Shown: positions 7,437-39,657 of the stretch, piece after piece | Numbering within the stretch: the first letter of the stretch is position 1 | How the letters are laid out: each line of letters opens with the position of its first letter | Origin: Cylicocyclus nassatus | Lineage: Eukaryota > Nematoda > Chromadorea > Rhabditida > Strongylidae | Assembly (NCBI GenBank): GCA_958299035.1 | Contig: CATQJL010000316.1 | Coordinates: 31,685,441-31,749,440, forward strand | Reading direction: 5' to 3' | Length of the DNA stretch: 64,000 nucleotides | The notes under the pieces: generated by a model | The model's input: the letters and a program-made list of their open reading frames with translations, nothing else | What the model was told of the DNA's origin: nothing | The model's database searches: none | Position numbers and translations under genes: made by a program

Positions 7437-7550
7437 ATGTTCCACATCAATGTCGACTACGATTTCGAACTGAAGCAGCAGCGCCCGCAAAGACGACAAC
7501 TAACTACGAGAATGTCGTCCTCAACTATAGTTTCGAAGACTGAGGATTAA
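7437..7550 (+). CDS. Small HINVD-family protein 1 (37 aa), function unknown
   Basis: I do not recognise the product. The 37-residue frame begins MFHINVDYD, continues with a K/Q/R-rich stretch containing RPQRRQL, and ends in a Ser/Thr-rich acidic tail (…SKTED). There is no signal peptide or membrane segment. The start is fixed by the family: codons 1-9 match those of the gene at 36220 with four nucleotide differences, all synonymous third positions, and HINVD recurs in the gene at 39529 with only synonymous changes. That pattern indicates selection on the protein. A TATA box lies 99 bp upstream. No splice donor is obvious, so the gene looks intronless. A 30-bp AU-rich triple repeat and an AATAAA follow in the presumed 3' UTR. 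The basic middle could bind nucleic acid or a protein partner, but that is speculation. Confidence 0.7.
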   Translation: MFHINVDYDFELKQQRPQRRQLTTRMSSSTIVSKTED

Positions 7551-7830
7551 ACTCTCGAATTCTGACACTATGGATAGACGCGGACTATGTACAAATTACA
7601 AGGATCAGCAGATCACTAAGGATACCTCTACGCGACGGTGGCCAATACTTCGGGAAGACGACTCTATTCTTATGATTCGGCGCAAGCCGAGTTTGGTGTC
7701 AGTCATGCTTCTTCCAGCATTTTGGCCTTTCCATCTATATGCACTGCTCTTATTGACAATGCCAACTTAAGTTGACCCTAATGTTGATTTGCTCATACGC
7801 TTGTGATGAAATTGTGCCTACTGAATTCCA
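7551..7830 (+). other. Presumed 3' UTR of small gene 1
   Basis: This lies between the stop codon and the AU-rich repeats. It contains a 66-codon open frame (7570-7770) that follows no convincing context and lacks a counterpart at the two related genes. I treat it as untranslated. Confidence 0.35.
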
Positions 7831-7920
7831 TATTTATTTGTTACGAAAGATGTATTTCTATATTTATTTGTTACGAAAGAAATACATGCATATTTATTTG
7901 TCGCGAATGCGAAAACGCAA
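7831..7920 (+). repeat. Three 30-bp tandem repeats with AU-rich element cores
   Basis: TATTTATTTG begins exactly at 7831, 7861 and 7891. The first two units continue TTACGAAAGA; the third is diverged. As RNA these give three UAUUUAUUU cores, the sequence type of AU-rich instability elements. The facing words TGTATTTCT (7851-7859) and AGAAATACA (7878-7886) could pair into a hairpin. Confidence 0.85.
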
Positions 7921-7924
7921 TAAA
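7919..7924 (+). terminator. Possible polyadenylation signal of small gene 1
   Basis: AATAAA directly follows the AU-rich triple repeat, 369 bp after the stop codon. A TGTACATA word, a Pumilio/FBF-type site, lies at 7949-7956, just beyond the expected cleavage point. Confidence 0.45.
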
Positions 7925-7956
7925 TCATATTTGGTCACATGCTTTTACTGTACATA

Positions 7957-8777
7957 GGGTTATGAAAACTGAACACAACCGTTTGGTCAGAAGACTCGAG
8001 CAAAGGAAAGAAACGGACAATTACCAACTTACAAATAGCTAAATGATTTTGCGAGGAGTCAACATTAAAGGTACGAAAGCCAGGAAAGCGAAAATGTTTG
8101 ATGTTTCGCTCCTTAAGGCTTTCCTACAAGTGAAAGTATGTATAAAATGCGAGGACAATATTGTTAAAGAGATACCTCTATGGAAAGAACAAATTACGCT
8201 TTGAGGCTACCTTTGAAAATTGTCAGAAACGCGCTTTGAGGCTTTATTAAGAAACGAGCTGGCATCCCGGGTTCCACCCCGTTCAGGAGCAAGTCCATCG
8301 TGCTTGATCTCTCATGTAGCAAAACTTACCCTTTTTCCTTGGGTTCGCTTCCTACCGTTTTTACCTATCTTGATAACAGCAGATCAACATGAGCTTCACC
8401 GCTCATCCTTCATGACTATGGGAAATATGCACAGAGCACAAACACACAGATTTTCTGTTTTATATATTAAGAAGTTTTCAGAAACTTCTATCTGTACCTG
8501 TATCTGAATGATGAAATCAGTTGTCGGTTTCCGTCATTAAGAACTGCATTCCCTTTCCTTTGATTTCTATCATTCACGTATGGATTTTGAATTCTTATAA
8601 AAATTCGTCCATGCTCCGACCCGCGCATTCCTTTTCAATAGAAATTTTGAGCTGTGGAAGTTAACATATAACCAAGTCTGAGTAGTAGTAGTTTTGCGCT
8701 CTAGCTTCGAATTTTTTAGAGATAAAGCGTTTGAATTGAATAAGAAAGGAACCGTCTTTTGCAACTAAAATATCACC
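7957..8777. other. No gene seen
   Basis: Short overlapping open frames on both strands have no supporting context. No repeat was recognised. Confidence 0.4.
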
Positions 8778-8779
8778 TA

Positions 8780-8995
8780 CAGTCGAGTAGATTTTCCGCT
8801 TAATATAGTGTGCTTGCACAGAAGGTGAAATGCGATAAAATTTGCGCGTAAACAAATAGCTTCGACTGTGACGCCGGCCAACTGCGGGCGCAAAATGTCG
8901 GCAGTACTGGCGTGGCTATTTTCTCACGCGCACATTTTACCGCATTTCATCTTCTGTGCAAGCATAGTATATCAAGCGGAATATCTACTCGACTG
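8780..8995. mobile_element. 216-bp MITE, CAGTCGAGTAGAT family, copy 1
   Basis: The element starts CAGTCGAGTAGAT and ends ATCTACTCGACTG, with TA on each side (8778-8779, 8996-8997). Inverted arms of about 80 bp surround a GC-rich asymmetric centre. A second copy of identical length lies at 61381-61596 in the opposite orientation. Confidence 0.93.
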
Positions 8996-8997
8996 TA

Positions 8998-9658
8998 CAA
9001 CAAATCGTCGATTTAGAAGAAATTACGAAACATGAAACTCCGCTTAATAAACTTTCATTCAACTTTTAGAATCTTGTCTTTTGTCCTCACATAAACAGTT
9101 ATTACAAGAGCAGTCATTCAGTATAGTTAATGTTACTCTGAATGTTGCGATTTTTACATGAACTCATCATGTGCCAATCAGTAAGAGACGATTCATTCCT
9201 CTATATTATGGTGTCTTTGATATAAAAGTGCATCAAGCGCTTGTGTGCTCTTCTTTGATCGCAATATATTACAGCTCTAGACAGCGCAGAAAGTGCTTTA
9301 GAGTTACCAGAAAGAAACAGTGAGAATTTACCTTGTAGTTTTCATAATCTTCTATAATTCAAGCGTCTATGCCACACATCGCAGATGCCTAGAATTTATT
9401 TTTCTTAAATGGAAAAAAGAATTCTGCTACAAATCAACGTTGGTTATTTCTTGGCTAGGAACAAGAATGTATTGAAATCGAAATTACTTGTTTCTGACAA
9501 ATTTTTAAGTGAACAGTACTTAAACCTGAGTATACAAGTGATTATAGAAAAACAAGCCAAAATTTAATTAGATTTAGAGAAGAAATTGGAATATTGTACA
9601 GGAAGCACAATAACGCTATCGAAAGTGATTGCAAAGGTTTGTTTGCTCAATTTTTCAG
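8998..9658. other. No gene seen
   Basis: AT-rich sequence without a supportable feature. Confidence 0.4.
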
Positions 9659-9852
9659 ATTCGTTAATTGATATGCCACATTTATATCAGCATTGTTCTA
9701 ACGTTTTTTGGAAGGGTATTCGTACAGTAAAGTGTAGGTCAGCCCTTGATTTAGTAAACAGCAAACATAAAACACTAATGCCAACCTTGCTCAATTTAGG
9801 GTTTCTTAATTGTACAAGAAGTGAGGAGATTTTTATTGGAGTGCTGAAATAG
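9659..9852 (+). CDS. Candidate terminal exon, unknown gene
   Basis: The segment follows a good nematode-type acceptor (CAATTTTTCAG, ending at 9658) and is open for 64 codons to TAG. It starts in phase 2. The composition is mixed hydrophilic and hydrophobic, with no motif recognised. I found no upstream exon with a matching donor, and open frames of this length occur by chance at this base composition. It may therefore be spurious. Confidence 0.22.
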
Positions 9853-10915
9853 GCTCTCACTTTTTGCAACCTTTAGTTCTTGTGCTAGTTGAATGGATCG
9901 GGATACACATCCTTACCCGTTTTATGTCACTCGTCTTTTAGGGCAAAAACTTTTTTTATCAATATCTTTTAGCTTTTCTCAAGCGTTGCAACACAAAAAT
10001 GGTTAATGAAGGTTTTAGTGAAAACTGCGGTCAAATCTTCTTAACACCCTTGTGGGTGTTCTGAACGCTATATCTCATCGCGATCACCTCGATATCCGAG
10101 AAAATGTTTTTTGCAGGAAATAATCTTCGTTGTATTATGAGATTTGGCTTATATATTACAATAATCTACTTAAAGATTTGGCCGCGTAGCGGCTTGCAGC
10201 AGTTTACCCTAAAATACTGATATCAGTTTTTGAGTAACGGACATGGTAACATAATGCTTCTGATCGCAGACAAAAAGTGCTAATCCGTAAATTGAAGGCA
10301 AAACCTTTGTTGGCTATTATTTATGGAGAAAGTATTGATACATATGTCAAGTGATGTTATATAATCCAATAGACAAGGCTTCATCCTTCTACTAATCCTC
10401 AAACTCTTCCCGCCGATGGTCTTTTGACCTTGTACAGCAAAGACCTAGGTTTTACAAGCAGAGTTTAGGCAGTTTCTGAAAGCATAACCAAATTCTGGAA
10501 TACACTATACATCTTGCGCCAGGAATTAGGCATCTTAATATGAAGCCCTACAATCGTAAGCTGCCAAAAGCTCAAGACCCCTAACCCAAGGTAGACGGAG
10601 CCTCTGAGTAATGGCTTGTTTAACACTTTTCAGACACCACCCACATATGAAGTCTAAGTTCCAAATCATAGGACGAATGCCTGCAAGGGCCTTTATGGAT
10701 ATATGGCCCTAAGAACGACCAAGTATGCACCCACACGCGTAGGCCACACAAGCTCCTGCTAGGAAGCAGTTTGTTTCAGCCCGATGCGTTTTAAGCCGCT
10801 TGCGTATCATCGATTAACACTGCTGTTTCATTGGATATATTACAGTGTAGAAGGTATAAGCTTCCACCTCCACCTAAGTTGATTTATGAGAGATCAATCA
10901 CGAGATTTTTCAAAG
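9853..10915. other. No gene seen
   Basis: Neither strand shows a convincing exon. The stretch 10400-10800 is less AT-rich than its surroundings, but I recognise nothing in it. Confidence 0.4.
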
Positions 10916-11285
10916 CAGTGTCCCGGCAGATTCGCGCCTTGAGAGATATATAGCTGAGGTGGGGTTCTTGTCACCCCACTAACCTCCAGGCCCAGTCCTG
11001 TTGCTTGATTTACACCCCCCCCTGCGCCAAGAAAATAGCCTTTGAACCGGCGCGCGTTAGGACGATTTCTCTTACCTGTTCGGCGCCGGACCACCACGAC
11101 CGCTCCCGCACTGTGCTTGCGCAGCAGGGCCTACCAACTTTTCACTGAAAATCTCGTCCGAGCTGCCTTTTGGAAATTGAAAAAACTGCCTTTTTACCCG
11201 GTTAAGAGCTCAAATTCGGGTTCTACGAGTCGAAAAGGCCTAAAACATGCAAAAACATGGAGATGCAAAACCTGCCGGGACACTG
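10916..11285. mobile_element. Possible hAT-like element with CAGTGTCCCGGCAG ends
   Basis: CAGTGTCCCGGCAG (10916-10929) is repeated as its exact reverse complement at 11272-11285. The CAGTG start and the 370-bp spacing fit a hAT-like non-autonomous element. The flanking 8-mers do not form a clean target duplication, so the assignment is tentative. The interior is GC-rich compared with its neighbours. Confidence 0.5.
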
Positions 11286-11825
11286 CCCTTAAGAACTTGC
11301 ATGTCAAAATAGCTCACATTTTCTTCCTAAGTTTCTTTAAAATTTATGCTCAAATTGCTTGTTCTTCAGAGGCTAGAACCAAAAAAAGTGCAACATGCGG
11401 TCATGAAACTCATCTATTTTAGCATTCAGTTAGCATTAATTTTTCCAAAGATTCAGCGTGAAGTTTAGCAGACGCCATAAAAATTGCAAATGTGGTTAAG
11501 ATGCGAAAGTACAAGTCTTCAAACGTACGAGAGGTCGCTTCACAAATCGCTCAGTGTACTCCTAGAAGAAAATGAAATAATATAATGATTTGGGGTAAAG
11601 ATACATGTTATTCTTCTAAATTTACTCCACAAATACAATCATTAATTAATGCTTTGCTGGTCTGATTTAGAGACGCATGACGAAATTCACTACGATAAAT
11701 GGCCGGATTCGAATAACCTGCAATGAATCTTCTGTTATAGAGATTTTGACCACTTGTGGTAGACATTAAAGCGCTCAAAGCAGTTTTTGATGGCCCTTCC
11801 CAATGGAAGCCACAAAAGGGTTTGT
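11286..11825. other. No gene seen
   Basis: Ordinary AT-rich spacer up to the hairpin at 11826. Confidence 0.4.
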
Positions 11826-11866
11826 GATTTGTTATCCAAAACTACTCTAGTTTTGGATAACAAATC
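11826..11866. repeat. Perfect 19-bp hairpin with 3-base loop
   Basis: GATTTGTTATCCAAAACTA (11826-11844), loop CTC, then its exact reverse complement (11848-11866). It has no T tract or gene context that would make it a terminator. Confidence 0.9.
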
Positions 11867-12490
11867 AGAATCATTAAATTTTCTCTAGGTGAGAACTGAA
11901 CTTTTATCTGTTGTGCCCTTACATTAGATCATAATTCTACAATTTCCGTTGCATTTTTAAACGTGCAAGATCATCACGCATAGCACATATAATACAAATC
12001 AATGCACACTTTACGTTTATGTAGCAATTTCTGACTCACAAATTCTTGACACAGCTATGAGCAAGATTATATGTCTACCTGTATTCAAAAACTAAGAAAT
12101 CTGCTTAGAACTGATAAGGATAATTTATCTCCTGATTTCTTAGAAGCAATAAGCATGAAATATGATAGCGTGGAACACTGAAAGGATACGATGGCAATAA
12201 TCCTTAAATTGAACCTGGATCAATGGAACAAAACTTTGCGTAATAATCGAATCTCCCTCCTTCCTCATTGCTGTTCAAAAAAAAGATTTTTTCGATAACG
12301 TTATACATATTCGGAAAAACTAAACAAGCTTTCTAAATAGCCTCAGCTACTCTTCGCCAAATCCACATTTGAAAAAAACAACTGTTGAACCATATGCTTG
12401 AGGTCTCAGGGCAGTCAGATTAGGTTGATGGACTCAAACAACCAATTGTTACTGCATATTTTCCGTTATTGCAATAATTGTTGCTGCTTA
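11867..12490. other. No gene seen
   Basis: AT-rich spacer without supportable features. Confidence 0.4.
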
Positions 12491-13303
12491 TTAGGTTGGA
12501 AACTAAGTTTTGCAACTGGTCTCATAACTTCCCTCTCACTCAACATGGCGCACTCAAATTTTGCCACTGCGTTGGTTATTACGTAAGCTACAAGCGCAGC
12601 TGCTGTCCTACCAAATTCTGACGTCGCAGTGATGGTTACGGTAGGTGCATGGTATGAAGGGGAAAAATTCAAAGTTTGACGGATTTGGCTGAAACTTGGC
12701 ATAGGGATGTTATCCGACATGCTGATCACGAAAACGATAGTGAAATAGCGTGATAAGGGCTTTTTTATAGGATTACTGTGGGTGTACGATATGGGGTCTC
12801 ACCCTTAACAAGGAAAAAGGCGTTGACTCAACAAATGAATGTGATATTTGTGTTTAGCAGGCCAAATAACCTTACTATGTAAAGTTTCGGCGGAATTTGA
12901 GTTTCGGACTCTTTAGTCATTGACGGTCGTCCCCAGCGGCTCTTGCGTACATCGACTCGTTCGAATTTATGAGGACGCCAAATCTTGACATGCCCCTATA
13001 TTTCGTTTCTTTCTTAATAGGCGAAAGGAGTCAACATCCAGCAATAATTTATAGACGAATCCGGATTACAGCGCATGGTCCAGGCTGCCAAAGGCTTCAT
13101 TTTAGCTTGAAATCCCAGAAATTCTCAAATTTCACTGGTTTTCGAAAAACGCCTGAAACTTTTCTATTTCGTGTATAAAATGTAAACAATTTGTGCTCAC
13201 TTGTAGCTCACATTGCCTTCTACATGATGCCAAAGTTTGAGTGCGCCATATCCAAAGAGAGTGAAGTTATAAAACCAGTTGCAAAATTTAGTTTTCAGCC
13301 TAA
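12491..13303. mobile_element. 813-bp mariner-type element, TTAGGTTGGAAACTAAG ends
   Basis: Terminal inverted repeats of about 75 bp run inward from 12491 and 13303. Both ends carry the words AACTGG, ATAACTTC and GCGCACTCAAA in order. TA flanks the element at 12489-12490 and 13304-13305. The interior is not palindromic and has no intact frame, so this is a non-autonomous or internally decayed copy. Confidence 0.88.
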
Positions 13304-13305
13304 TA

Positions 13306-15980
13306 TTTGCTTTTGTCGCTATTTTGCATAAGGTTACAAATACTATGAGTTATTTGCGTGTTACAATTAATCCGGAAGACAGCTCGAACGAGTAAACGAC
13401 GTAAGTAATGCCAATCGGAAGTTCGTCACGTTCTGTTCATTTGCTGTAGCGCTACTACGCATTGAGTGGGTTTAATAAATGAGAGTGTGAATAGTCTTAA
13501 ATATGCAAGCGCGGAAGGGAAACGCATGGTTTGGACAAGCCTTGGTAATGCATCAAAGTTTTTGACTGTTGCGTAGCTGTACGTTCAGCAACAAATTGGT
13601 AAAGATCGTGCTTTTGCTGTAACTCCGAAGCTTTCGAATGGTCAAATTCCTCCTTTGTTGAAATGTTTGGCGGAATGCGTATGGTCTTTGACTTTATTTA
13701 AAGAGCAAATACAGACAAGATATTAGTCCATTTCAGTAGAGTCTCCATTTTCGTAGAGGGTACAGTTAGAACATTAACAACTTTTGATTCAACGCCACGC
13801 AATCCTTTCGCCAATGCTGACCTCTTGAGTAATTCAACCTTTATTAGAAAAAAGCATAGCTCCCAAATTTATATGAACTACAGCGATGATAAAAAAAGTG
13901 AAACTTGTGCTTTATAATCTTCGATGCTCCTCTTGGAAGATGAGCCTCATGCTTGCGATGAGAAAAGGATTTAGTGAACAAAGGAACACGTTGTTCGTGG
14001 GCCTGAATTGAATCAGATATCTAGTGATCTCGTTCTAAAATAGAGAACTTGCGAATTAGTTTGAAGACCCCTCTATCAAGAATGAGTAGCTCCCAATATA
14101 AATGACCTAAAGAACTCTCCAAGAGAAAGTTCAAACACGATATGACACATACTTTAGCCATAAGTGTTCTTTGAACATAGTATTATATTTGATATACATA
14201 AAAGTAAGTAGGTTCACATCGGAAAAAGATGAGAGCTAGAAGGTTAGAAGCAGCAAAACATATAAATCAAAAAATTTCACGAAATTATACGAGGTGGAGC
14301 CTGAAAGCTACCGTTTTAATATGTGCACGGATACTTGAATTTTTGATCATTGAGTAATTTCTCATATTGAACACTGAACTTTTCACGGTGCTCTAACTAC
14401 AGGTACTTTTCTGTTATTCGCACTCATGTTTGTAAGCATTATTTTTGTCCTTTTTCTCATGCCAATTTTAGGCCAAAATCAATTAAAGGAAATGTCACTA
14501 AACTGTCACAGGTCAAAAACTTGGCGAAAATCTATATTTCGGTGAGACCGGGGCCATCTCCACGGACTTTTCAAAGATTTTTAGATTAGATCACACACAG
14601 TGCCATCTACAAAATACCTACAGATCTCTGAAAGCTGACAAAAAATGAAGGTCGTTTACACAGTGCAAAAAAATTCCTGGAGTGGTTTATCCTGAAATAG
14701 TCGTCATTTTCACGAAATAGCCCTGGCAAACCATGTGTGCAAAACGGTCCCACGTGGTCTTCATTGCTTGACATACCATGTATGTTAAGCGGTCGTCACT
14801 GTGTCATATGTAAAGCTCTTTTTTCTACGCGCACCTCAAAACACTTCATTTTTTTCAAAAATAAAGCGTCACAGGTCATCCTTCAATTACCGTTCAATGT
14901 TCTCAATGGATGCTGAAGTATAATGCAAACATAATGTCTCAAAAGTGTCGGTTTTTTGATCACTCATCTTGCAGCACGCTGATTAATGAATGAGCTTGGT
15001 TTTGTCTTTCTTCCCATCGTTCAATGCATTTTTATCCTCTTTCTGATAGCAACATTTTCTCTTCAATTTATATAGTGTTTGCAATGTTATCGCCATGGCT
15101 CTCTGAGTAATTCAACATAACGCCAAATTTTCTTCTTATTTTTGAAAACTTTTATCTTGATCTTATCTAGAAACGCCGGTAAACCTTATGTAAAGTGAGC
15201 TTTCGGCTACATTTCACTTGTTTTACGCCGCATAGGCCAAATCTGAATTCTGTAGATGACATTTGCTTGAGAGAATAAGGTTCTCTAAGCACGTTTAGCG
15301 CATAAGAGCCGAAAATTCTGAAAAAAGAGTTTCTTCAAAGAAATAAAGCTTGATTATTCTGCACAAATGATGTTTAGCAGCAAACAAGCTCAACTCAACC
15401 AACTAGTAACTTTGAAAGCATACTGTTTTCACTGCAGTTGCATGCTTCACTTTATCAAAAATCAAAATCTCCAGAGAAATGATTGTTCAAAGCTCCAAAC
15501 ACCAGACAAGAAGGATCTTAACACTACCTTATAGCTCGGATTTGCTTCATATGCATCGGATCTATTTTTGAAAATTGCCGTTTGAAAACGTTATACCTAT
15601 TTTTGAAGACTTTCAGCAGATAGAAATGATGGGCAAAGAATTGGCAGCTACCCAAAAGCATTTGAAAGACTATGATTTAAAGAGGTAACCATTAAAAAGA
15701 GAAGAAAGGCTGCATTATGCATGTCTAATGGCAATTAAGTCTTGATTTTACGAGGGTTTATAATGTTTGAAATAATCGACAAAACTTCTGGGACATCTCA
15801 ATGGATAGCGCAACATCTATTTGAATAAAGTATGCGGATTGGCAAGACGCGTTTGTAAAAACACCGTTCTAATTTTCCACTAGAAATAACATCGTTTTGA
15901 ACGAAAGAAATGTTGAGAGATTAAGGTAAACAACAAAGATCTTTCAGAAAGATTTTGTATCAATTTCAACTGGCAATATA
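13306..15980. other. No gene seen; one unpaired element end
   Basis: The only repeat signal is near 15772-15800, a CTTCTGGGACATCTCAAT sequence resembling the right end of a mariner-type element. I could not find its partner. No exon is supported. Confidence 0.4.
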
Positions 15981-16753
15981 TTACGTTGTCGGATAATTTC
16001 TGTTACACTTTTCATTTCAATTCTTGAAAATCTCAGAAGCTTTGAAAAGAACTCATGTTTACGGCATATGGGCAAGGTCAAAAGGCCTATTCAAAGGTAC
16101 CGTCGCATTCGTGCGCAAAACACCCACTTTGTTGAAAATCCGTTTCTTCCCATTCTTGTAAATGAGCCGGCGTTTTCTCAGGTGATAAGCGACAGACCGG
16201 ACAATGTGGTAATCAGGTAGCGCATAGTCTTTGGCGTTTAGCAAATGAGGGAGGATAACGCGACATGTCTACACAGGTTTTTCTGAGCGGTTCAAATGTT
16301 AGTGTGCGCCATCTTTGAAATCATCGGAAATTTAACGAAGAAAACTTTTTCAAAAAATTTCGAAAAATCATTTTTATGTTTTCTGCCTTCATTTCTATAG
16401 ATGCACATAAAAAGAAGAATTTAGGAAAGCATTTGAATTTTTTTGATATTTTTTACCCCTCGTTTTTGAATCTCTGTACCGGAACGCCTCCATGTAAGAG
16501 ACAATGCTAAAATATGCTCTAAAAACTTCTGGAAAAGGAAAAGCGCAAGAAGGTGCAGAGAAATCTGCAATTTGACTGTTTTTACAAAACTACCGTAAAC
16601 TTTTTGGTAATTGGTGCACTTGCGGCTCAATCATGTTGGTGGGTAGATTCTGCTATGTCTTAAGCGTGTTGCAAATTTAAGGTTTTCAGAAAGCTTCTGA
16701 AATTTTCTAAAAAATTTAGAAAAAAATGTAACAAAAATTATCCGACAACCTAA
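15981..16753. mobile_element. 773-bp mariner-type element, TTACGTTGTCGGATAA ends
   Basis: The left end TTACGTTGTCGGATAATT and the reverse complement of the right end, TTAGGTTGTCGGATAATT, match for about 70 bp. TA flanks the element at 15979-15980 and 16754-16755. The interior is not palindromic. Two minus-strand open frames inside (16059-16244 and 16421-16630) could be transposase debris, but I cannot recognise the catalytic DDD/E motif. Confidence 0.85.
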
Positions 16754-16755
16754 TA

Positions 16756-18432
16756 AATCGCCATATTGACACCGTCAAAATGACCTCTACAGGGTTTTTT
16801 AAAAGGTTCTAGGCCCAATTTTTAAAAGTATTATTTGTTAGCATTCGTAGTCTTCAAGTTTGATTATGAGTTTTTCGTCTAGTTGCCAATAATTCACAAA
16901 AAATCAAACCGTTTGCATTGTACATCCTCAAGAAATTACCTTGAAGCAAGCAATACTACAACTTTGAGGTCAAGCCGATGGAAATGTAACCCAACGTGTA
17001 ACATGTGTAGCTCTTTCAGCTTTTGAGCTTTTACGGAACTCCGAGTGGCAAAATATAGAGTTATCTTCGTACAAAACTAATTACCAATCTCAGTTCATAG
17101 TACTGTAGGGTTTGGAACAAATCCTTGAACTAGTGCCGTGCCATTAGGAAAACGTGTTCGGAAACTACCCGAAGAAGCTGGAAAGTCCAACACAGAGTCA
17201 GTCTGAATCACTATTTTCAGCTGTAAGCCTTGCCTTGTTTAACCGAAATGTTATTTTGAAGTCACTTGAGGTACACCACAAATGCTGTTATCCTGATGTT
17301 CTCAACAACAATTGCTACATTTTGACAAGTTTGCTTAATCTCGCAGAAACAATTTCTCATGCATTCTAAAAGCCGCTGGCTTTTCTTTGTGATTAGTCGT
17401 GGAAAGCAAAATTTGCTCTCTTCTGCACCAAAATTTGAACAATCTGAAACGCGTGCTTCAGAAACTATGAGAGAACATCGGCGCCAACTACCCGTCTGTC
17501 ACGATGCATGCATTTCGCAAGAGTGCCCCTGTGAAGGCCAAAGGAGGGCTTATGGATTCTGAGTGCACATTATTGTTTTGCAAATTTTCAGGAATTCTTC
17601 ATAAAATGCATGCTAATTATCATAGGTCTAATCTTTCATATAATTTCAATTGAAGAAATATTAGCCCTTAGAACTTTTGGGACATCCTATAGAAGCATAT
17701 TAGCAAGATCACAACGCTAATTTTTTTTTTAGGTATGGCAGATAGACAGTCCTTGCAAAATCAGGAGAGTAAATTTCATCCCAGCATACAATTCACAGCA
17801 TTTGATGAAGAAAGTGGGTCCGAATGATGGAGGAGTACCGTTGTTTTCACTGACTGACATTTTGACGCTCTCTTACGCGTATGTAAATCGAAGAAATCAA
17901 AAAAGTTTCTACAATTGTTTTGTCATCGGAATGTTACCTCAACGAAAAATGTTAACATTCTTGTTTGTTTCAGCGATTACTCAATTGAAGTTCCTCTAAA
18001 CCATTATTTATATCGTCTCTTGAATAGCAGAGCAAGTTGAGCTGCTGCTGCATCCAGCTTCTAATTCGCATTTTTCTCAGAATTGGTAGCCAAAATTTGA
18101 CGTTTTAAAGTTCTAACGACTTTGCGCAAATGTGGTTTTGAGAAAATTATTCGTCAAAACCTGAGCCTTTGACCTTTAACGAACGTGCTCAGAGCACAGC
18201 GAATCTTCCGTGATTGAGAAACAATTTATATTCTCTAGAAGCCGTAAGTTGATACTCCTTTATTTTTTATTTGGTCATTGCTTATGTCAATCAATGTTAT
18301 TGATACGACAAAATTGACTGAAAAACACTCGACTGCTTATTCAGTCTCTCAAAGTTCAATATTAATGTACGCCAGATGAAAACTAAGGGTAAAATCTGGA
18401 GTACTTAGGCAACCTCATTCATTCATAAAATA
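16756..18432. other. No gene seen; one unpaired element end
   Basis: Overlapping open frames at 17154-17562 may belong to a decayed element whose right-type end (AACTTTTGGGACATCC) lies at about 17677-17692. No left partner was found. Otherwise AT-rich spacer. Confidence 0.4.
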
Positions 18433-19141
18433 TTAGGTGGGTGCAAAAGTTCTGTCGTTTCATTTTCAAAAATTTGTAACATCGCCAGATTTCAACGGAT
18501 TTGCTTGCTTGTAATTTTATTAGAAAGAATAAGTCTTTCGCTTTCAAATGCTATCCCGTGGAGCTTCTGTTTCGCACTGGGTGCCGAGATAAAAATGGAA
18601 AACTAAGACTATGTAAACTTTGACCATTTTAAGTTAGGTCACCAAAAATATGGAATGCTGCAGAAAAATCTGAAATCGTCAGTACATATGTTTTTTGGCC
18701 TACTCTTCGCAATTTTGAAAGTTTGTGCTGTTTGGACGTCTCTGTGAGAAGTTATGATTTTCGCGAAAATTCACAAATTAAATGATTTTGGCGTTTTCCA
18801 TGGTAAACTCGATATTCATAACTTCTCACGGAGACATTCAAACAGCACAAACTCTTCACGATTGCAAAGAGTAAATCAAAAAACTTATGTACTGACGATT
18901 TCAGATTTTTCTGCAGCATTCTGGATTTTTGGAGACCTAACTTAAAATGGTCAAAGTTAACAAGGTCTTAGTTTTCCATTTTTATCTCTGCATTCTGTGC
19001 GATACAGAAGGTCCGCAAAATAGCGCTTGAAAGCGGAAGACCTGTTCTTTTTAATACAATTACAAGCAAGCAAATCCGTTGAAATGTGGCGAAGTTACAA
19101 ATTTTTGAAAGTGAAACGACAGAAGTTTTGCACTCACCTAA
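18433..19141. mobile_element. 709-bp fully palindromic mariner-type element
   Basis: The element starts TTAGGTGGGTGCAAAAGTTC and ends with its near reverse complement. TA flanks it at 18431-18432 and 19142-19143. The arms are about 320 bp around a 60-bp loop near 18760-18815. The terminus resembles the TTAGGTTGGTGCAAAAG ends of cecropia-type mariners such as Hsmar1 (established knowledge). No transposase is encoded. Confidence 0.92.
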
Positions 19142-19143
19142 TA

Positions 19144-20720
19144 TTTTACTCACTTTCGATATTCATAGCGGAAGTTGAAAAAAGACAAAACTAATCCTGT
19201 GTTGTAAACTCACATCATAGCATTAATGCTAAATATCCTTGTAGAAATATTTTAAGCGCCTTTATAAGAAGATTTTACGTCAATCATTTCCTGCTAACTC
19301 TTAATACCTGGCGAGACAAAAGATGCCGAAGCGGAAGCATTACAACATGCAAAGAGAGGATTTTTCTCCTACGTAGTCGGATTAAAACTTCATACATTAA
19401 GCTTTTTAGTCATTCAACGCACTATCTTACAGAGATTTCTTCCACAAGCTATATGATCCCCAAAGTGACAAACAAAAACCGAAGTGCTGTTCCGCGTATT
19501 GTAGTATTACGTAGATATCACATGCATTGTTAATATGATAATCATTCTCTGGGGAACTTACGCAATTCGCACATTCTTTGGTATGTGCACAACTTTGCTA
19601 ATTAGTTCTAAAAATAGAGCAGAACTTGAATAATGCAGATCAATTAGGATATATTACCGACAATCAACAATTTGGTTAACATGAAGAAGGTTAGAATCGC
19701 ATTTTGTGTTAGCTTTTCCCTTAGGAGGAAAAATTTCTCTTTTAGCCACCAAATCTTCGTAAACAGAGAGAGTCAAAAGTCAATCGTTTTTGAACAAAGT
19801 CAGAAAACTTATAAGTGTTCTTTCGATAAGAACAACCTCGTTTGTTGTGGACGCAATACTCCGATATTTGTACTGACTATGCTTTTTGCTTTAAAGTTCT
19901 CTTGGCTCCACATAGTCGAAGTGCTAGCGTCAGCATTGTCTTACAAATAAAACCACCGATAGCTCTTTACTATCAAACGGTTTCTGGAAATCATTCTGCA
20001 AATCATTAGCGACAATCAAGTAGATTCATCGCAAAAAATCTTAAGTAATGAAAAATCTCTTTGAGACTTGGTCAGAACTGCTGATTTTGACAACAATACG
20101 GCTTGCGAGTTATTGAATCACCATAACGTTGCTACGCCATATTTAGATTAACCAAAAAGGGACGGGGTAGTACAAAGTTCATAACCTATTTAAAGACTAT
20201 GATAAATTTAGATAATGAGTTCTTTTTGAAGTGATTTTGAGGACAGCGCGGTTTTTTAGTGGTAAAATAGTATAGGTGAAACGCGAACCAGTCGCGAAAG
20301 ACATCTGGCAAGTTGCCGGCTCGCGTGGCAACTATAATCGGAGCCTACTAGGAGCGGTTGGCGATTCGCCCGTAATAGACAATGGCCTAGGATTTCCAAA
20401 CAAGGGGTAACCTTCTTAGCAAACCTTGTCAGTGGCTTTGAAAGTTCGCTTCTAGCCTCAAAATTTGAAATAACTTAACCTACTTAGCCAGCATACGATT
20501 CATTTTCGACCTTGTTCCCCTACTTGAGGTTTACTTTATGTTGGTTCGTTCTAAAATTTGAGTATGAAATTTATTCTGATTTCAAGAACTGCCTATCTGC
20601 AACGTGCCAAGGAGAAATTGACAAATTATCATCTTTCCATGTTTCCGAAAATTATTTCCGATGGCGTAAACATAGCTGTTCACGTCCTGAAATTTTTTGA
20701 AATACATTAATCAAATAACA
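19144..20720. other. No gene seen
   Basis: A 92-codon open frame at 19672-19950 has no splice-site or homology support. Otherwise AT-rich spacer. Confidence 0.4.
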
Positions 20721-20760
20721 CGGTGTCCCAAAAGTCAGTCTTGTAGCGTAATTCTGCATC
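20721..20760 (+). repeat. Unpaired CACGGTGTCCCAAAAG element end
   Basis: The sequence resembles the left end of the CAGGGTGTCCC family found at 26044 and 48576. No matching right end was found downstream, so this is a solo end, a truncated copy, or chance resemblance. Confidence 0.4.
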
Positions 20761-25654: not shown

Positions 25655-25656
25655 TA

Positions 25657-26707: not shown

Positions 26708-26709
26708 TA

Positions 26710-29970: not shown

Positions 29971-30084
29971 TCAGTGATGTTGTGCTATACGCTGTGAACT
30001 CTGATATATTCTCGGACCAGCTCCGCGTAATTGGTTTTCGGCTTCTGATCCATTCAAAGCAATCTTAGCCCACATCATCAGCGC
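29971..30084 (-). CDS. Candidate terminal exon, unknown gene
   Basis: It follows a strong acceptor (CCTGATTTTAG, ending at 30085) and is open in phase 0 for 37 codons to TGA. The translation contains the segment MMWAKIALNGSEAENQLRG and is unlike the low-complexity frames around it. Other splice-flanked short open segments lie upstream on the same strand at about 30540-30610 and 30660-30720. All three frames of those are open, and I could not build a consistent phase path. No motif is recognised. Confidence 0.28.
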   Translation of the reverse strand, partial: ALMMWAKIALNGSEAENQLRGAGPRIYQSSQRIAQHH

Positions 30085-32510: not shown

Positions 32511-33137
32511 CCCGGTATTGGCCACACAAGTAAAATGGTCATTTTCAAGCACGGTTAACCATACCTTAAAAGTGAATCAGCTACCTCTTCTTGTGCTCAC
32601 TAGAAAGCGCTGCTCCCTATTTGCCCACATTAAATTTTGCTTCAAATAACGATCTCACAATGGAATTAAGTTTGTTCCATCATTACTTACAGTGGTTGTG
32701 CTTCCAGCAACTAATGCGTAAAACAAAAAAGACGAATTTAGCTTCAATGACATCTACAAAAACTATGAGATTTTGGCTATCAAACGCTTATTGTTCGCTA
32801 AAAGTCTCTTTGGAGGTAAGTTGATGGAGTGTGGCACAAATCCAGAAGAGCTGTGGCTGCCACACCTTTTTAGGGGTCATGCCATACCCCATTAACTTAC
32901 CTTCAAAGCATTCAAATACCTGTGCTTTTTACATCGTTGCCATAATAAAAGCGAAAAACGGAACAAACGAGATCTTGGATTGCTTTCAATTCCATAGTTT
33001 GGACGTTATTTGAAGTGGGGTCTCTAATTTGAACAAAAAAGTAGTGGTTTTTTACATCGCAGGAGAAGTAGTTGACTAAAATTTGAATAGTTGATAAGTT
33101 CAAAAGTGACCATCTCACTTGTGTGGCCCAGTATTTG
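32511..33137. repeat. Diverged 630-bp palindromic element
   Basis: The outer words GGCCACACAAGT and ATGGTCA at 32520-32545 recur inverted at about 33103-33137. Further in, CTTCAAATAACG and ATGGAATT (about 32640-32665) recur inverted at about 32989-33024. The halves meet at the short palindrome 32809-32908. Similarity between arms is moderate, so this is an old foldback element. Coding-like frames inside it lie within the arms. Confidence 0.7.
32809..32908. repeat. 100-bp palindrome carrying consensus splice donors on both strands
   Basis: CTTTGGAGGTAAGTTGATGG at the left pairs with its near reverse complement at the right, in 29-bp arms. Each arm reads inward as AG/GTAAGTT, a consensus 5' splice site, on either strand. 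Confidence 0.88.
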
Positions 33138-33237
33138 AAAACCTCAGAATTTGGTGGAACTTGGTCCACAGAAGTTATTTGACATGCTAAATTGATGCCG
33201 TTGTGCTTCTAGGGCCCATTCATTATGTGCTTACCAT

Positions 33238-33413
33238 ATCGTCGATTCGTTCAGCGCACGGACTAGACATCACTGCGGAGCACGCGCCGCGAGGTAAAAC
33301 GCTTGCCCCAGTACAAATTTGCCATCGTACAAGTCGTACTCTTGCAACAATTTGGCTACGCCGCGCTGGTCCGAAGCGCTCGAGCAGTCCGTGCGGATTA
33401 CGAATCGACGATA
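33238..33413. repeat. Short inverted-repeat element, about 175 bp
   Basis: ATCGTCGATTCGT followed by CGCACGGACT at the left recurs inverted at the right as AGTCCGTGCGG followed by ACGAATCGACGAT. The interior is GC-rich for this window and only partly palindromic. Confidence 0.75.
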
Positions 33414-34174
33414 ATGCGACGGTAGGCTGAAACATCAATGTGCTAGAATTTGCTTAAGGCGATCTGACAACTGTTAACAAATATCGTGTTATCGCTAAGA
33501 TCAGTATCGGCTCAAAAACGATCTCCTCCATCCTTGACCCCTCAATACGACCCTCCAGATGTGGCATGCCACATCCCATTCTTGACCCTCAACAAGATCT
33601 GCCGCATTTTCAAAGTTACCCTTAGAAAATAACAATACCTTATCCAACTAAACTTCACGGTTTGGGAGACACAAAACAACCTTGGTCAGCATACATACGA
33701 TGTGTTTCAAATGTGATACAATTTGACAGTTGTGACACAATTTGGTCGTTATCACTCCTTGCCTCAATGTTGGTCACGCTCAAGATTCGCATTCCAGAAT
33801 CAATCACCCAGCTTCAAATCAAACTTACAATGCAAGAAAACAACCGATCACTCCTTATCATGCAAAGTAAAGGTAAGTACATTATGTAACTGCCAAATGA
33901 AAAAAATTCTTACAATCAATAAGAATAACATCTGGCTTTCAATGTTGTTGCAACATTTTTTAAATCTAACACATGTTAATTGCTTCATTCTGTATTGAAA
34001 CGTAATGGCATTGACAAGAGTGATCAACAAGTTTGCTTTTGAGGCAACCTGTATATATGGTGAGAAGCAGCTGGTATTTTACTTGCTGCGGATCCTGGGT
34101 GGATGTGAGATTCTGTTATAAATCATTTGGTAGCTCTGCACAATGTATTGATGCAAACCCGCCGAGTTCGCAAC
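33414..34174. other. No gene seen
   Basis: A perfect 18-bp palindrome, GATGTGGCATGCCACATC, lies at 33557-33574. Otherwise AT-rich spacer. Confidence 0.4.
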
Positions 34175-34293
34175 GCTAAGGCTAGGTACATACTAATCCG
34201 TAAGTTCCGGAACAGTTCCAGCACAGCGCGCACACTGTGCGCTGTACTGGAATTGTTCCGGAACTTACGGATCAGTATGAATCTAGCCTAAGC
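34175..34293. repeat. 119-bp near-perfect palindromic MITE
   Basis: Arms of about 55 bp contain CTAATCCGTAAGTTCCGGAA and GTTCCAGCACAGCGC, mirrored with a few mismatches around a very short centre. No second copy is in the window. Confidence 0.88.
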
Positions 34294-34375
34294 AGTCTTT
34301 CAAACTCTGATTGTAGCCTAATAATGGAAACCACTTGCGCAATAGCTCAGAAAGATGACTGCGCCTGATCTCTTG

Positions 34376-34833
34376 CTTACAAGGGAATGGTCCGAAGTCG
34401 AAGTAACCAATCCAGACAGGCTGCAAGCCATTAGGTGCAACATGAAGCGCTGATTTCAAATCTGTCTTCCCTATCTGCTTATCGCTTTTCTGGACGAAGC
34501 TATAAGCCATTAAAGGGCATTATTTTGCTAAGAAATTGTGCGTGAAAGTAAAATTGGCCGTACAGAGTCACGTTCGGCTTAATGCTGGGCCAAAACACGG
34601 AGCTAGGTTAGTCTTAATTCTCAAAGAGTAAAGATGAGCTGAACGCGCAACAAGGTGCTCAATTTCGCAATTTTTATGCACGATTTTTCCGCAGTAAAAC
34701 TGCTTGTAGCTTCTTCCACAAAAATGATAAGCAGATAAGGAAGACAGGTTCGAAGTCAGCGTTTTGTGCTCCATCGAATGGTACACAGGTTGTTTGGTTT
34801 GACCACCACGACTTTTGACCATTCTCTTGTTAG
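34376..34833. mobile_element. Foldback element, ACAAGGGAATGGTC family, copy 1
   Basis: The outer arms (CTTACAAGGGAATGGTC at the left, inverted CTAACAAGAGAATGGTC at the right) surround a spacer containing TTGGCCGTACAGAGTCAC. The same architecture and spacer occur at 60484-60943 in the same orientation. It has no coding capacity that I can support. Confidence 0.8.
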
Positions 34834-36085
34834 CCGCCTTGCGTAGCTTCACTTTTGTGCAATCCCATTATTGATTTTGGTATCGTCCTCAAAGCTTTGT
34901 AATTCACAAGCGTTGCATGGGCGACAATGCACCTTCGTACATTGGCGACTAGCTAAAATCTTGGGATCTCAACATATAGATGGTAGCTTAATACTTGGTT
35001 AAGCACTTAAAGCGATCTTAAAAATATTTTTGATGCAAAAGAGCTAAAAGAGGTGTTGAGTCTTAGCAATTTTCGACATTCCACGCATTACTATTTAAAT
35101 CGGAGTCGACTGCAAATCTAGTCATATTCAATTTAAGCATGTTACTCTGAAAGCTTTTACACCATGTATCTAACATATAGAAATAATTTATAGGATGGAT
35201 ATGATCTATTTCAGTACCATATGCCATAACAAGCTTAAATAATTGAGTAGTGCGTTTGCTATAGGCAGTTTTAATCCTAAGTCGAGCGGATTCTCAAATA
35301 AAAACATCAGACTTTGTGTTATCCTTGTCATCCTCTACAAACGTCACTGCTGGCAAATTATGTTCAATTTTGTCGAAAACAGTATTCTTCGAAAACACTA
35401 ACTGCTTATTTTCGTTGGGATGATGTCAAAATGGAAGCCAATCTATTTATGCTTTGACAAATGGCGGTTTCTCAAATTAACACTAAATATGACAACATAC
35501 AAGAACTATTAATTTATCCGCACTCGCCATATGTAACTCTTGAGTGCTGTTCCAAAGAGTCAAAGTGGTTGGACCTAGGCGACAAGATCAACTACAGGAA
35601 ATGCACAGACGTGCAGGTACCTAATATTTTTTGGTGAGTTGAATTCCGAGTTTACCATCTGCCATAAATTGAGCATCCACATTTCGTGGCCAACTGCATA
35701 CTGGACACAATTTGAGTACATTTCTGTTAACAAATGTGTTTTCTCTTCGATTTTTTTTCAATTTCGCTGAACACGAAACGATTGCAGGTAGGAGGACTTG
35801 CCTTAAAATTTAACTCATAAAAAAGCACAGCACTTAATGCTGAGAAAATAATTTTGGTCAAGACAAAGACGGTATTCTCTGTGATCTAAAACAAAAAGAT
35901 TATTGCATTTTTACTTGTCTACAAATCACGAAAAGAAACCATAGACGAAAAAAGTCACGGCGTTAATTTCAAGTTCAACCGGAACTGGTGAAAGGACTAT
36001 CACCTACAGCTAATGCTGTTTGCGTTTGTTAATTTTCAGAAACCTAGTGGATTTGTTGTCGACAGAAGGCGGCACCTCAGCAGTA
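34834..36085. other. No gene seen
   Basis: AT-rich spacer. The part nearest 36086 may hold upstream regulatory sequence for small gene 2. Confidence 0.4.
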
Positions 36086-36112
36086 GGCGTGGCCAGATTG
36101 TCGCTATATAAG
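36086..36112 (+). promoter_or_regulatory. GC box plus TATA box of small gene 2
   Basis: GGCGTGGC (36086-36093), 11 bp, then TATATAAG (36105-36112). The start codon is 115 bp downstream. A second GC-rich word, GGCGGCACCTC, lies just upstream at about 36068. The architecture is shared with 7314-7345 and 39752-39782. Confidence 0.78.
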
Positions 36113-36219
36113 GCGCGCTGGTCATCGTCTTTAACAAGCCCTCAGCCAACAGTTACTCTTCAGTCAACAGATTGACAGTGCTAATCAGTTCTAAATTCTT
36201 GGCAGCCGACATTGACAAA

Positions 36220-36321
36220 ATGTTTCACATTAATGTTGACTATGATGTAGACCTAAGACAGAGTCGTCCTATTATTCGACGTCGACAGCTTTTCGCCACT
36301 TCATTATCAAAACGACGGTAA
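36220..36321 (+). CDS. Small HINVD-family protein 2 (33 aa), function unknown
   Basis: Encodes MFHINVDYD followed by a basic stretch containing RQSRP and IIRRRQL and a short SLSKRR end. I do not recognise it. Residues 1-9 are identical to the gene at 7437, and the four nucleotide differences over those codons are all silent. The spacing from HINVDYD to the RQL motif is also kept. Arginine and lysine dominate the C-terminal half. There is no signal peptide or membrane span. A donor-like ACG/GTAACA overlaps the stop, so a spliced longer form cannot be excluded. It is convergent with the relative at 39529-39657, 3.2 kb away. Confidence 0.72.
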   Translation: MFHINVDYDVDLRQSRPIIRRRQLFATSLSKRR

Positions 36322-36564
36322 CAACAACCACTGCTCGTTAGGCATGGATCTCATCTTTTTCTCATCAGATGCCCTGTCGCTACCGCTTCAATTTGACCTG
36401 CCATAATTAAATGCTATAATGTTGTACATATATGAAAAATGTGATTCTGTCTGGAATTATATTGATGTATTGTATAGATTGCTTTGTATACGGGATGCAA
36501 TGATTTCTTGGGTGTAGCGACAATGATCCTTACTGTGCGATCTCCATAGATCTCATACGTATGC
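36322..36564 (+). other. Presumed 3' UTR of small gene 2
   Basis: Contains TGTACATA near 36424, which fits the UGUANAUA Pumilio/FBF recognition sequence. It runs to AATAAA at 36565. Confidence 0.45.
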
Positions 36565-36570
36565 AATAAA
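36565..36570 (+). terminator. Possible polyadenylation signal of small gene 2
   Basis: AATAAA 244 bp after the stop codon, the first such hexamer downstream. Confidence 0.5.
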
Positions 36571-39528
36571 AATGTAAACGTAATTGTTGTGATCCAATGA
36601 TTTGAACATGCTTTTAGAAAATACCTTTTTCTCCTGATGGAAATGTGGCGATCACACATCAAAGAAGTCGCACTACATTTTTTCCCTTACTTGATTCTTC
36701 ATAAACTTTTTTCTTTTCAAAACAATATTTCTTCCAAAGTATGAGTAAACACGTTAGCATGCAACGGTTTGCAGGACAGATCATGCCAGCAGTCGACTTA
36801 ATAAAAGCACCTTGTTGATTTTGGAGTGGACAATCAAGCTCCAAAAAGTATTTTAGAAGTGAATGATTGATTTAGGGTGCATATGTGTGTTTTTGAGTGG
36901 AACTGTGAAATGCACCTTGATGCGTAAATGGATTGGACTTTACCAAGTATAGTACGTTCGCATGTGCGGTTGTTTGTAGACGAAGCATTAATGTTATTAA
37001 AATCAACTACTTGCTTAGTTTTACAGTTTCACTGTGGAAGGGCTTTCTTACCTTAGATTCAAAAAGGGTTTATATCACAATAAAATTCTTCTGTAGTCTC
37101 TGCACCGATCAGCTTATAGCAGCAGCTTACACGGCTGCTGTTTTGTTATAAAGCTGCATACATTCCTCCATTGTTCCAAGGTGTCAATTCATACTATCCG
37201 CGCCTTAGTGAGTCTCTTCACGTAGTTTTGAAGAATGCTATATCGAGGCGGGCTCTAATAACCGAGTCAAAGTAGCAGACTGTTTCAAAGTGATGTCAAA
37301 CTTTTTTGCTCTAATCATGACATGAGTAAGGTGTCTGATCAGTGAGTGAAAACCTTCAACAAAGTGCACAATTTCCAATTGAGCATGTTTTTTGTAGTTC
37401 TCAACAAAAAAATGACCATGTAGACTACCAAATCATTGGTGCTTTCATCCAACTTGATATTAGTACTAGTTCATCATTGAAAGGCTAACAGAAACCTTTT
37501 GTGATTGCTGACAGATTTCAATATTACTTTGCTTCGTTTCATTCAATAGAGCTTATTTAGTCTTTTCGGTTTTTTAGATGAAAGAAGTAAGAGCGCAACG
37601 AAGAAAACTGAATGAGCATTACTTTCATTAGATGAGCACAGCATAAGGAAGGCAGTCAAGTAATAGTCACTTTTCCTTACCAGTACTGTCAAATTACCAT
37701 AATCTTCTTTCAACAGTGCATCAACGACATTGCTTTATCTCGATAGCATTCTCATCTAGTACTAAGAAGAGTGTTGGCTATCCTAACTCCGCTGTGCCAT
37801 CTCTAAACATAGATCTGGCCTTTCTTCGTTTTTGGCTTTGTCTTCATTCAAAATTCTTTCAACAGTCACTCTGCTCTGCAAGCTAATTCCTATCTCGTCC
37901 TGTAGAATCCTATAACAAATCATATAAAACGTAAACATAATCGAGAATACCCGTTAGTACCTATTATGTACGTGTGAGAGTGCACTTATCATCAAAAAAT
38001 GAAGCTAGTAATTGCATATAAAAGGTGAAATCAAGTGTACGCAAATCCAAAAATTTTCTGCTGATTTGGATTACATATCTAGAAGTAAGGTCGGTAGAGA
38101 AATTGATTTGAGCAAGATCATAGAGATATGAGTTGTTCAAGTTTAGCACCAACAGCAGGCAAGCACTTAGGAACTCTGCTATCCTACGGATTAGTGTCTT
38201 ATAAGGTTGAAAAAAACGTTGATATATTGGATTGAGCAAAAATAATGGTCGTTCCTCCAAGCCTTTGTTCGGAAAAACTTTTCCAATCAATATTCCTTGT
38301 TTGAAACAAATGTATATATCGTTGAGAAGCTCTCTTTATGCTCTATTTTAAGATTAAGGTGAGGTTTCACCCTTACTAAAAAGTTACAAAGCTTTGAATA
38401 ACCGCATCAAAACCAGAAATTCATAGCATTCGCTTTTCTGGCTAGAATTCGAAGCGAATGAACGGCGCTCTTCGGGAAATTTAGCTTTTATATGCAAAAG
38501 AAATTGCATATATTACGCATACTTATCTTTTTAAAAATTTTCTAGCTTGAGTCGACGCCTCAACATGGGAGCCGTGGTCCTTCTATGACCCATAAATTTT
38601 AGAAGGAGGCAATCGCCAAAGTTTCGCTCATTCCTTTGGGGTGGGGCATCTTGTTGACGCTTTTTGCAGAATCATTCAGCTGTTCAGTACCCAAAAAACC
38701 ACATAGTCCATTTTTTGAAGGAGTTATGACATGTCAAATACAGGCTTTGAAAAAGTTTTTTGTTTTTTAATCCATATCTTTCAGTTCGTTTGTGATGTGA
38801 GTATGAATGAATGTGCGCTGTAATGCAAAAGGTTTGCTGCTTCCGATGATCTTAATCGCATTCAGAAATGTAAATTCTTCAGGAAGTAATAGCATCTCGA
38901 AGTGAAAACTTGCAAAACGTCTATTATTTTTGCTTCAGCCTAAAATGTTCAATGGGTCTTGAAAGGCTGATTAACTTCAGCTTTACCTTCAGCTCAGAAG
39001 CGTCTGCCAAATAAGTTTAATCAGCGTTGGTGATCATATACTACACGTTACAGTATCCCGGACCAATCATGCGCAAACAAACGGTCGAATAGCATAAATG
39101 CATACGTTTGAAGAAAAATGCAAGCAAACCTCAACCTAAATCATTCAAAGCAGACATGAAATGCAAGTGTGACTGTTGATAAGGTTAGCACGTCGTTCTC
39201 ATGAAAAGGAGATGTTAGGCTCACGAAAATGATAGAGCGTAACCTCGCCTGACACTCCCTGCTTCTATAAATCATCCAAATTATGCTGTTTTCACAAGCG
39301 TAACACATGGTGGAGCTTTATAAATTTATAGTCATAACTTCAACACAGCAGTGATATGCATTTGCCCGTTTACGAAATTCTAGCAATTAACGCAAATCAA
39401 ATAATGTACAACTGGATGTACAACACAAACAGACTATTTACAGATGATCATCGAACATGAAATAGTGCATAGCGATAAAACTCCCGTAATTGCTCAACAG
39501 TTCTCTCACTGCAAAGAGTGGACGAACA
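36571..39528. other. Intergenic space between convergent small genes 2 and 3
   Basis: Apart from the presumed 3' UTR of small gene 3 (see 39529-39657), which contains TGTAAATA on the minus strand at 39434-39441, I see no gene. The 108-codon frame at 37964-38290 (-) has no support. Confidence 0.4.
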
Positions 39529-39657
39529 TCAACACGTCGAAAAGCTTCTTCGGAGTCCACGTCGTACTTGTGATCGTGCTAGCGCAATGATGCGTAATTG
39601 TCGTTCACGTAAACGTTGCTCCATGCAACCATCTGTATCGACGTTGATATGAATCAT
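39529..39657 (-). CDS. Small HINVD-family protein 3 (42 aa), function unknown
   Basis: The frame begins MIHINVDTD, continues CMEQRLRERQL and ends with an arginine-rich stretch (SQVRRGLRR) before SFSTC. The HINVD codons differ from those at 7437 only at three silent third positions. The ERQL motif falls at nearly the same distance as RRQL in the other two. It is the most diverged and most basic member, with nine arginines in the last 28 residues. The TATA box lies about 102 bp upstream. The 5' leader shares CTGTCA and TTACT words with the other members. It looks intronless. The function is unknown; a short nucleic-acid-binding or adaptor peptide is one possibility. Confidence 0.68.
   Translation of the reverse strand: MIHINVDTDGCMEQRLRERQLRIIALARSQVRRGLRRSFSTC

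Follow-up and report, generated by a model that had tools for sequence, protein, structure and literature searches.

In insects, the Bearded family consists of clustered, intron-less small genes which encode basic proteins and have regulated 3' untranslated regions (UTRs), and tarsal-less/polished rice (pri) encodes conserved micropeptides with an LDPTGxY motif, several peptides being produced from each RNA. In nematodes, the med genes of Caenorhabditis are described in two papers (PMC6945043, PMC10446496) as small, duplicated and, in the Elegans group, intron-less, with promoters that contain Sp1-type motifs in 17 of 20 species and a TATA-like motif in 13 of 20. The same papers state that small intron-less med genes are often overlooked by gene finders (PMC6945043), that zygotic genes of C. 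elegans are enriched for TATA and SP1 motifs relative to maternal ones, with fast and slow genes not distinguished, and that the high-rate early genes of this species are short, have few introns and stem from recent duplications (PMC10446496). Here we describe the HINVD family, a set of very short open reading frames (ORFs) first seen in a 64,000-nucleotide stretch of the Cylicocyclus nassatus genome (the window; positions 31685441-31749440 of contig CATQJL010000316.1, referred to as C316), which are almost certainly real protein-coding genes. The family resembles the MED/END early zygotic genes in being small, duplicated and easily missed and in having Sp1-type plus TATA-like promoters; it shares with the Bearded family a clustered arrangement of small, probably intron-less genes for mostly basic proteins, with 3' UTRs that may be regulated, and with tarsal-less/pri the combination of micropeptides and a short conserved motif.

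The original prediction, made from the window alone, proposed a family of three frames of 37, 33 and 42 amino acids (c1, c2 and c3 in Table 1). All three are present at the positions given and start with M[F/I]HINVD, and the pentapeptide HINVD occurs exactly three times in a six-frame translation of the window, each time directly after M-x, and is absent from 100 first-order Markov sequences of equal length. As proposed, four third positions distinguish c1 from c2 over codons 1–9 and three distinguish c1 from c3 over HINVD, all of these differences being silent. The wider statement that divergence is restricted to silent sites holds for the HINVD codons; at codon 2 the F of c1 and c2 is replaced by I in c3, and the tails vary freely. 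A QxR-rich middle, an RRQL/ERQL motif and a basic end had also been listed as common features, and of these our alignment retains the RQL triplet along with the first 7–9 residues, with little else conserved; c1 does not end basic, its C-terminus being ...SKTED. When segments of the three loci (upstream, ORF, downstream and far-upstream) were compared pairwise, the DNA similarity of the c1 and c2 ORFs was above that of all 200 shuffles, and the real score was reached by nine of 200 shuffles for the c1/c3 ORFs, four for the c1/c3 upstream segments, 44 for the c2/c3 ORFs and at least 29 for every other pair. It is therefore mainly the protein sequences that make the family recognisable.

A search of the genome (514,686,895 bp in 369 contigs) placed these frames in a larger cluster. 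HINVDYD was found in three places (none in the control), which are c1, c2 and a new copy, c4 (C316:31789962), and M[hydrophobic]HINVD was found in seven (none in the backward control), five of them, c1–c4 and a further copy c5, inside 175 kb of C316. Together with c6, a probable member, the cluster spans about 183 kb of this chromosome-sized contig. The three frames proposed originally all belong to the family, but it is larger than was claimed, with at least five HINVD members in the genome and c6 as a probable sixth without the full motif. The other two strict matches, both on contig C112, were judged to be due to chance (L037, MVHINVDAKNAAHTN..., 25 codons; L038, MMHINVDFLSEKTL followed by a stop); they have no TATA box and no family tail (by eye in the case of L037), and upstream of L038 there is a G+C box at -139 and no TATA. 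A looser pattern matched 11 places in the genome compared to four in the control, with c1–c4 the only family members among them, and the remaining seven were rejected on inspection because of a short unrelated tail (L044), the lack of a start codon at that place (L045, L046 and L047) or an early stop (L052–L054). These last three (C316, 81.0–81.2 Mb) are copies of one duplicated segment which start with MHINVD[SR]D and stop after 18 codons; a box of the TATAAA type lies at -205 before L053 and L054, with no G+C box just upstream of it, and by eye the strand opposite L052–L054 may carry a membrane-protein exon. In viral contigs the HINVDYD DNA pattern was found in 13 stretches, none of which has a Met two residues before it, and these were set aside.

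Further evidence comes from the promoters. In five of the six members (c1–c4 and c6, but not c5) a G+C-rich box starts 19–25 bp before a TATA box, which is itself found 54–117 bp before the ATG (in c4 the TATA is at -117 and the step from the G+C box is 19 bp). We take the G+C-rich boxes of c1–c3 to be of the Sp1/KLF type. Within the window our first box/TATA pattern had four matches. Three belong to the HINVD frames, and the fourth, at 10414 (minus strand), has a wider spacing and is not followed by a HINVD frame. Across 264 kb including the window, a narrow pattern matched four sites, all at c1–c4 (40 Markov sequences gave a mean of 0.4 and a maximum of 3), and a broad pattern matched seven pairs, five of which lie directly before family frames (c1, c2, c3, c4 and c6), while the two at -45255 and 124124 (window-based coordinates) have no family frame. 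As chance sequences also yield such pairs, the evidence lies in their placement before family ATGs and not in their number. Within the same 264 kb, 17 frames of at least 20 codons start with M[hydrophobic]H[I/L/V/F], and the six that are family members include all five which lie behind a box/TATA pair; among the 11 non-family frames, only the one at -82579 is within 160 bp of a TATA, and this frame lies behind no such pair. No heat-shock elements were found in the 450 bp upstream of c1–c3.

The closest relationship is between c2 and c4, whose ORFs are identical at 95 of 102 positions without gaps and end at a common stop codon (the c4 translation is MFHINVDYDVDLRQSRPIIQRRQLVATSLSNRR). Their flanks are also similar (proximal promoter 84%, 3' UTR 88% when gapped), with identity falling to 71% and many gaps past the AATAAA, and the collinear alignment is limited to a block of roughly 1 kb (-230 to +790 relative to the ATG), the remaining matches of the 20-kb surroundings being scattered repeats. 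The ratio of replacement to silent substitution rates (dN/dS), which the original prediction had suggested as a check, is 0.22 over the whole gap-free frame by the Nei-Gojobori count, a value based on small counts. The first 17 codons have three silent and no replacement changes. The original claim of real tiny genes whose N-termini are under purifying selection is backed by this ratio, the additional copies in the cluster and the G+C-box/TATA layout.

The remaining two members were ranked next when a profile of c1–c4 was run over the 264 kb, with c5 fifth (E 0.012) and c6 sixth (E 0.15), both below the inclusion threshold. The frame of c5 is open for 144 codons (beginning MFHINVDYVIERIQHNS...) and keeps MFHINVDY with only silent changes compared to c1 and c2, so that M[F/I]HINVD opens each of c1–c5 and the HINVD codons of all five diverge by silent changes only. 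At about the expected position of the G+C box c5 has GGGGCGTGAC. A genome search with the first 44 residues of c5 found only c5 itself; it also missed c1–c4, and its sensitivity is therefore low. The c6 frame (MFHIFTDCDSGVNLTSSIQPRKMIPAMFASISCKRSVRSKT, 41 amino acids) lies on the minus strand at -78485 in window-based coordinates (about C316:31606955) and starts with MFHIFTDCD..., retaining MFHI, D7 and D9 (MFHI..D.D) but not NV. Its promoter has GGGCGGGCC starting 20 bp before a TATATAAA TATA, and the ATG lies 54 bp beyond this TATA. We count c6 as a probable sixth member because the profile match and the promoter are independent of each other, and the promoter layout shared by this profile-found frame slightly raised our already high confidence that the HINVD frames are coding. 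More divergent relatives of this kind beyond the 264 kb could have escaped detection.

Table 1. Features of the HINVD loci. Positions are those of the window except in the last five lines, which give contig positions on C316; distances are from the ATG unless stated otherwise.
Feature	Position	Strand	Remarks
c1, intronless single ORF, 37 amino acids	7437..7550	+	translation MFHINVDYDFELKQQRPQRRQLTTRMSSSTIVSKTED
c1 TATA box TATAAA	7338..7343	+	starts at -99
c1 G+C-rich box AGGCGGGGC	7313..7321	+	starts 25 bp before TATA; sequence unlike the c2/c3 box
c1 3' region, three TATTTAT (AU-rich element core) units	7831..7897	+	in a short direct repeat around TATTTATTTG
c1 likely polyadenylation signal AATAAA	7919..7924	+	+482
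c2, intronless single ORF, 33 amino acids	36220..36321	+	translation MFHINVDYDVDLRQSRPIIRRRQLFATSLSKRR
c2 TATA box TATATA	36105..36110	+	starts at -115
c2 G+C-rich box GGCGTGGC	36086..36093	+	starts 19 bp before TATA; c4 counterpart GGCGTGTC
c2 3' UTR TGTACAT (Pumilio/PUF-type core)	36423..36429	+	kept in c4
c2 likely polyadenylation signal AATAAA	36565..36570	+	kept in c4; c2/c4 similarity drops soon after
c3, intronless single ORF, 42 amino acids	39529..39657	-	translation MIHINVDTDGCMEQRLRERQLRIIALARSQVRRGLRRSFSTC
c3 TATA box TATATAAA	39752..39759	-	starts at -102
c3 G+C-rich box GGCGTGGC	39775..39782	-	starts 23 bp before TATA
c3 downstream, three TGTANAT (Pumilio/PUF-type) cores	39404..39442	-	within 39 nt
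c5, strict-motif match	31615362		
c1, strict-motif match	31692877		
c2, strict-motif match	31721660		
c3, strict-motif match	31725077	-	
c4, strict-motif match	31789956		

The 3' regions contain candidate regulatory sites. TGTANAT cores are found once in c2, once in c4 (where the site is conserved) and three times in c3, compared to a background of 0.30 per kb per strand for a slightly stricter form of the motif; as PUF-type sites they are no more than suggestive. TATTTAT units are found three times in c1 and once in c4. An ATTAAA at +186 in c2 is missing from c4. A literature search for intron-less small genes of nematodes in connection with Pumilio found nothing.

There are also differences from these known systems. 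MED/END are GATA zinc-finger proteins, whereas c1–c5 have no GATA-type finger nor any Pfam domain above the cut-off. The protein motifs of the Bearded family are not visible in the HINVD peptides, and Su(H)/LAG-1 and Bearded-type regulation was dropped as an explanation after Su(H) sites and Brd and GY boxes were found at none of the three loci c1–c3 (-1200 to +900); the K-box core TGTGAT is found downstream of c1 and c2 but not c3. The LDPTGxY motif of tarsal-less/pri is absent from c1–c6 as judged by reading, and each gene here has one peptide rather than several.

Taken as a whole, the explanation we favour, and hold to be somewhat better than even, is that the family consists of clustered single-exon genes whose short products are regulators inside the cell, with a docking motif anchored at the start and tails that change fast and are mostly basic. 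Local duplication would have spread the family along one contig, the small members being single-exon genes whose products would act as micropeptides inside the cell; an intracellular role is likely because the small products have no hydrophobic leader (by reading). The first residues may form a docking site for one partner protein, and we regard such a start-anchored motif as reasonably probable, since constraint which is strongest at the extreme N-terminus combined with free tails is the pattern expected for a docking motif fixed at the start. The variable, mostly Arg-rich tail could then serve as a second docking site or make nuclear or nucleic-acid contacts. With less confidence, we suggest that a zygotic-type Sp1/TATA core promoter may drive brief expression of the genes, which would then be shut down via the 3' UTR, by PUF-type sites in c2, c3 and c4 and by AU-rich elements in c1, so that the products would be short-lived developmental regulators like those of other tiny intron-less early genes. 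By this analogy the family might act as transient regulators of the early zygote, a suggestion that we offer only tentatively. More speculative still is the full combination, in which M[F/I]HINVD (core M[F/I]HI..D) would be a new docking motif of lineage-specific micropeptide regulators with early-embryo Sp1/TATA transcription, clearance through the 3' UTR and an interchangeable basic tail.

A number of results weigh against parts of this explanation. The protein collection provided no homologue when searched with the c1–c3 alignment or with c3 in a longer frame, Pfam had nothing above the cut-off for c1–c5, and the literature searched, which did not extend to subscription journals or nematode databases, contained no HINVDYD, FHINVD or HINVDY, with HINVD alone found only in four apparently unrelated papers. 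The AlphaFold model of c3 (from a three-sequence alignment) is one long helix of low confidence (predicted local distance difference test score 65) and was not used. At the promoters, the narrow pattern was fitted after c1–c4 were known and missed c6, the seven pairs of the broad pattern are only moderately above chance (40 Markov sequences gave a mean of 2.8 and a maximum of 6), and none of c1–c4 has the initiator TCATTC downstream of its TATA. This initiator is tied to a high rate in PMC10446496. In the 3' regions, c1 has no PUF core before its AATAAA, the only one lying beyond it, and there are none in the 865 nt after the c5 stop or the first 1000 nt of c6; it should also be noted that the 600 nt following the ATG of c1–c3 have four 7-mers in common, and that TGTACAT, as one of these, is not significant alone. 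No AATAAA lies close downstream in c3 (neither AATAAA nor ATTAAA before +636) or c6 (neither signal before +890). Codons 18–33 of c2 and c4 have one silent and three replacement changes, so that, on these small counts, the tail is under weak or no constraint between the two copies. Finally, c5 has no TATA box and its frame contains a microsatellite; it could be a spliced gene, a copy in decay or a relative of greater length. Beyond these, the sub-threshold Pfam matches to LcrR (c3, E 0.12) and Auxin_repressed (c5, E 0.011) were put down to composition, and a PDB search with c3 returned a single match at E 1.3.

The alternative which survives best is that the HINVD frames are the 5' exons of longer spliced proteins, in which case the stops would be intronic and the tiny genes artefactual. 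The 144-codon frame of c5, which has the same start and possible splice sites by eye, would fit such an arrangement, as would the lack of a nearby AATAAA in c3 and c6. Against this, the frames of c2 and c4 run without gaps to the same stop codon and are followed by a conserved block which ends soon after their common AATAAA, as expected if the transcript is short and has a 3' UTR, and c1 also has an AATAAA. We consider the spliced-exon alternative unlikely.

A second and rather less likely alternative is that the peptides are tiny antagonists of cyclins and cyclin-dependent kinases (CDKs), with RQL acting as a cyclin-docking RxL motif as in the CIP/KIP inhibitors and the Drosophila early zygotic protein Fruhstart, which a tiny, early and intron-less gene would resemble. 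RQLF in c2, RQLV in c4 and RQLRI in c3 loosely fit RxL[hydrophobic], but RQLTT in c1 does not, and RQL is missing from c5 and c6; the CDK-inhibitor domain was not matched in c1–c5 by Pfam, and motifs this short are frequent by chance. It would also leave the best-conserved part of the peptides unexplained, and we know of no counterpart of HINVD in small RxL cyclin-docking proteins.

It is very improbable that the RNA is the product and the open frames are incidental. The 3' UTRs of c2 and c4 are nearly as conserved as the ORFs (88% compared to 93%), but the starts of c1, c2, c3 and c5 differ mostly at silent sites while keeping their residues, and the flanks of c1–c3 (three segments per pair) have no clear DNA similarity, the closest being the upstream pair of c1 and c3 already mentioned. 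Least credible of all is a chance or database artefact in which unrelated ORFs share a pentapeptide, for while the looser pattern does yield chance matches (seven of 11 non-family, four in the control) and two of the seven strict matches also look like chance, it is already contradicted by the genome-wide strict search, in which five of seven matches are clustered, and by the broad-pattern promoter placement, as well as by the promoter layout that the members have in common, the anchoring of the motif at the start and the duplication of c2 and c4.

The surroundings of the cluster appear to be transposon-rich without obvious large cellular exons, short exons being outside the scan. A Pfam search with the 150 longest of the 229 window ORFs of at least 60 amino acids gave one GIY-YIG match and weak matches to OrsD (E 0.001) and UNC-79 (E 0.005), and with the 150 longest of the 552 flank ORFs of at least 70 amino acids there were reverse transcriptase, GIY-YIG, Tc5 and Pif1-type matches, CC2D1A/B DM14 (E 0.003) being the single weak match of a cellular type. 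The GIY-YIG protein fragment of the window (44554-44835, minus strand; Pfam E 7e-6) has 67% identity to a protein from an ENA source, lies inside inverted repeats (44062-45500) and is Penelope-like; proteins of this kind occur in strongylid nematodes. At L023:5259-7578 two similar frames of 413 and 384 codons lie side by side in opposite orientation, and the first of them has a reverse transcriptase as well as a GIY-YIG domain. Long inverted repeats of the miniature inverted-repeat transposable element (MITE) or fold-back type are found in the window at 1280-2600, 4564-6535, 18426-19148 and 52687-53408, and a 500-base gap of Ns occupies 780-1279.

On the sequence evidence, the HINVD genes are a small clustered family with no relatives detected in the collections searched, and one which is now better supported than in the original prediction. 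Frames this short usually fall under the cut-offs of gene finders, and here the start-anchored motif, the repeated promoter layout and the duplicate pair together argue that such short frames are real genes. The start motif plus the G+C box and TATA provides a search recipe for other nematodes, and the c1–c4 profile combined with the promoter layout has already yielded a sixth, motif-degenerate member in c6. If the motif is indeed a docking site, then its partner would be directly findable by pull-down.

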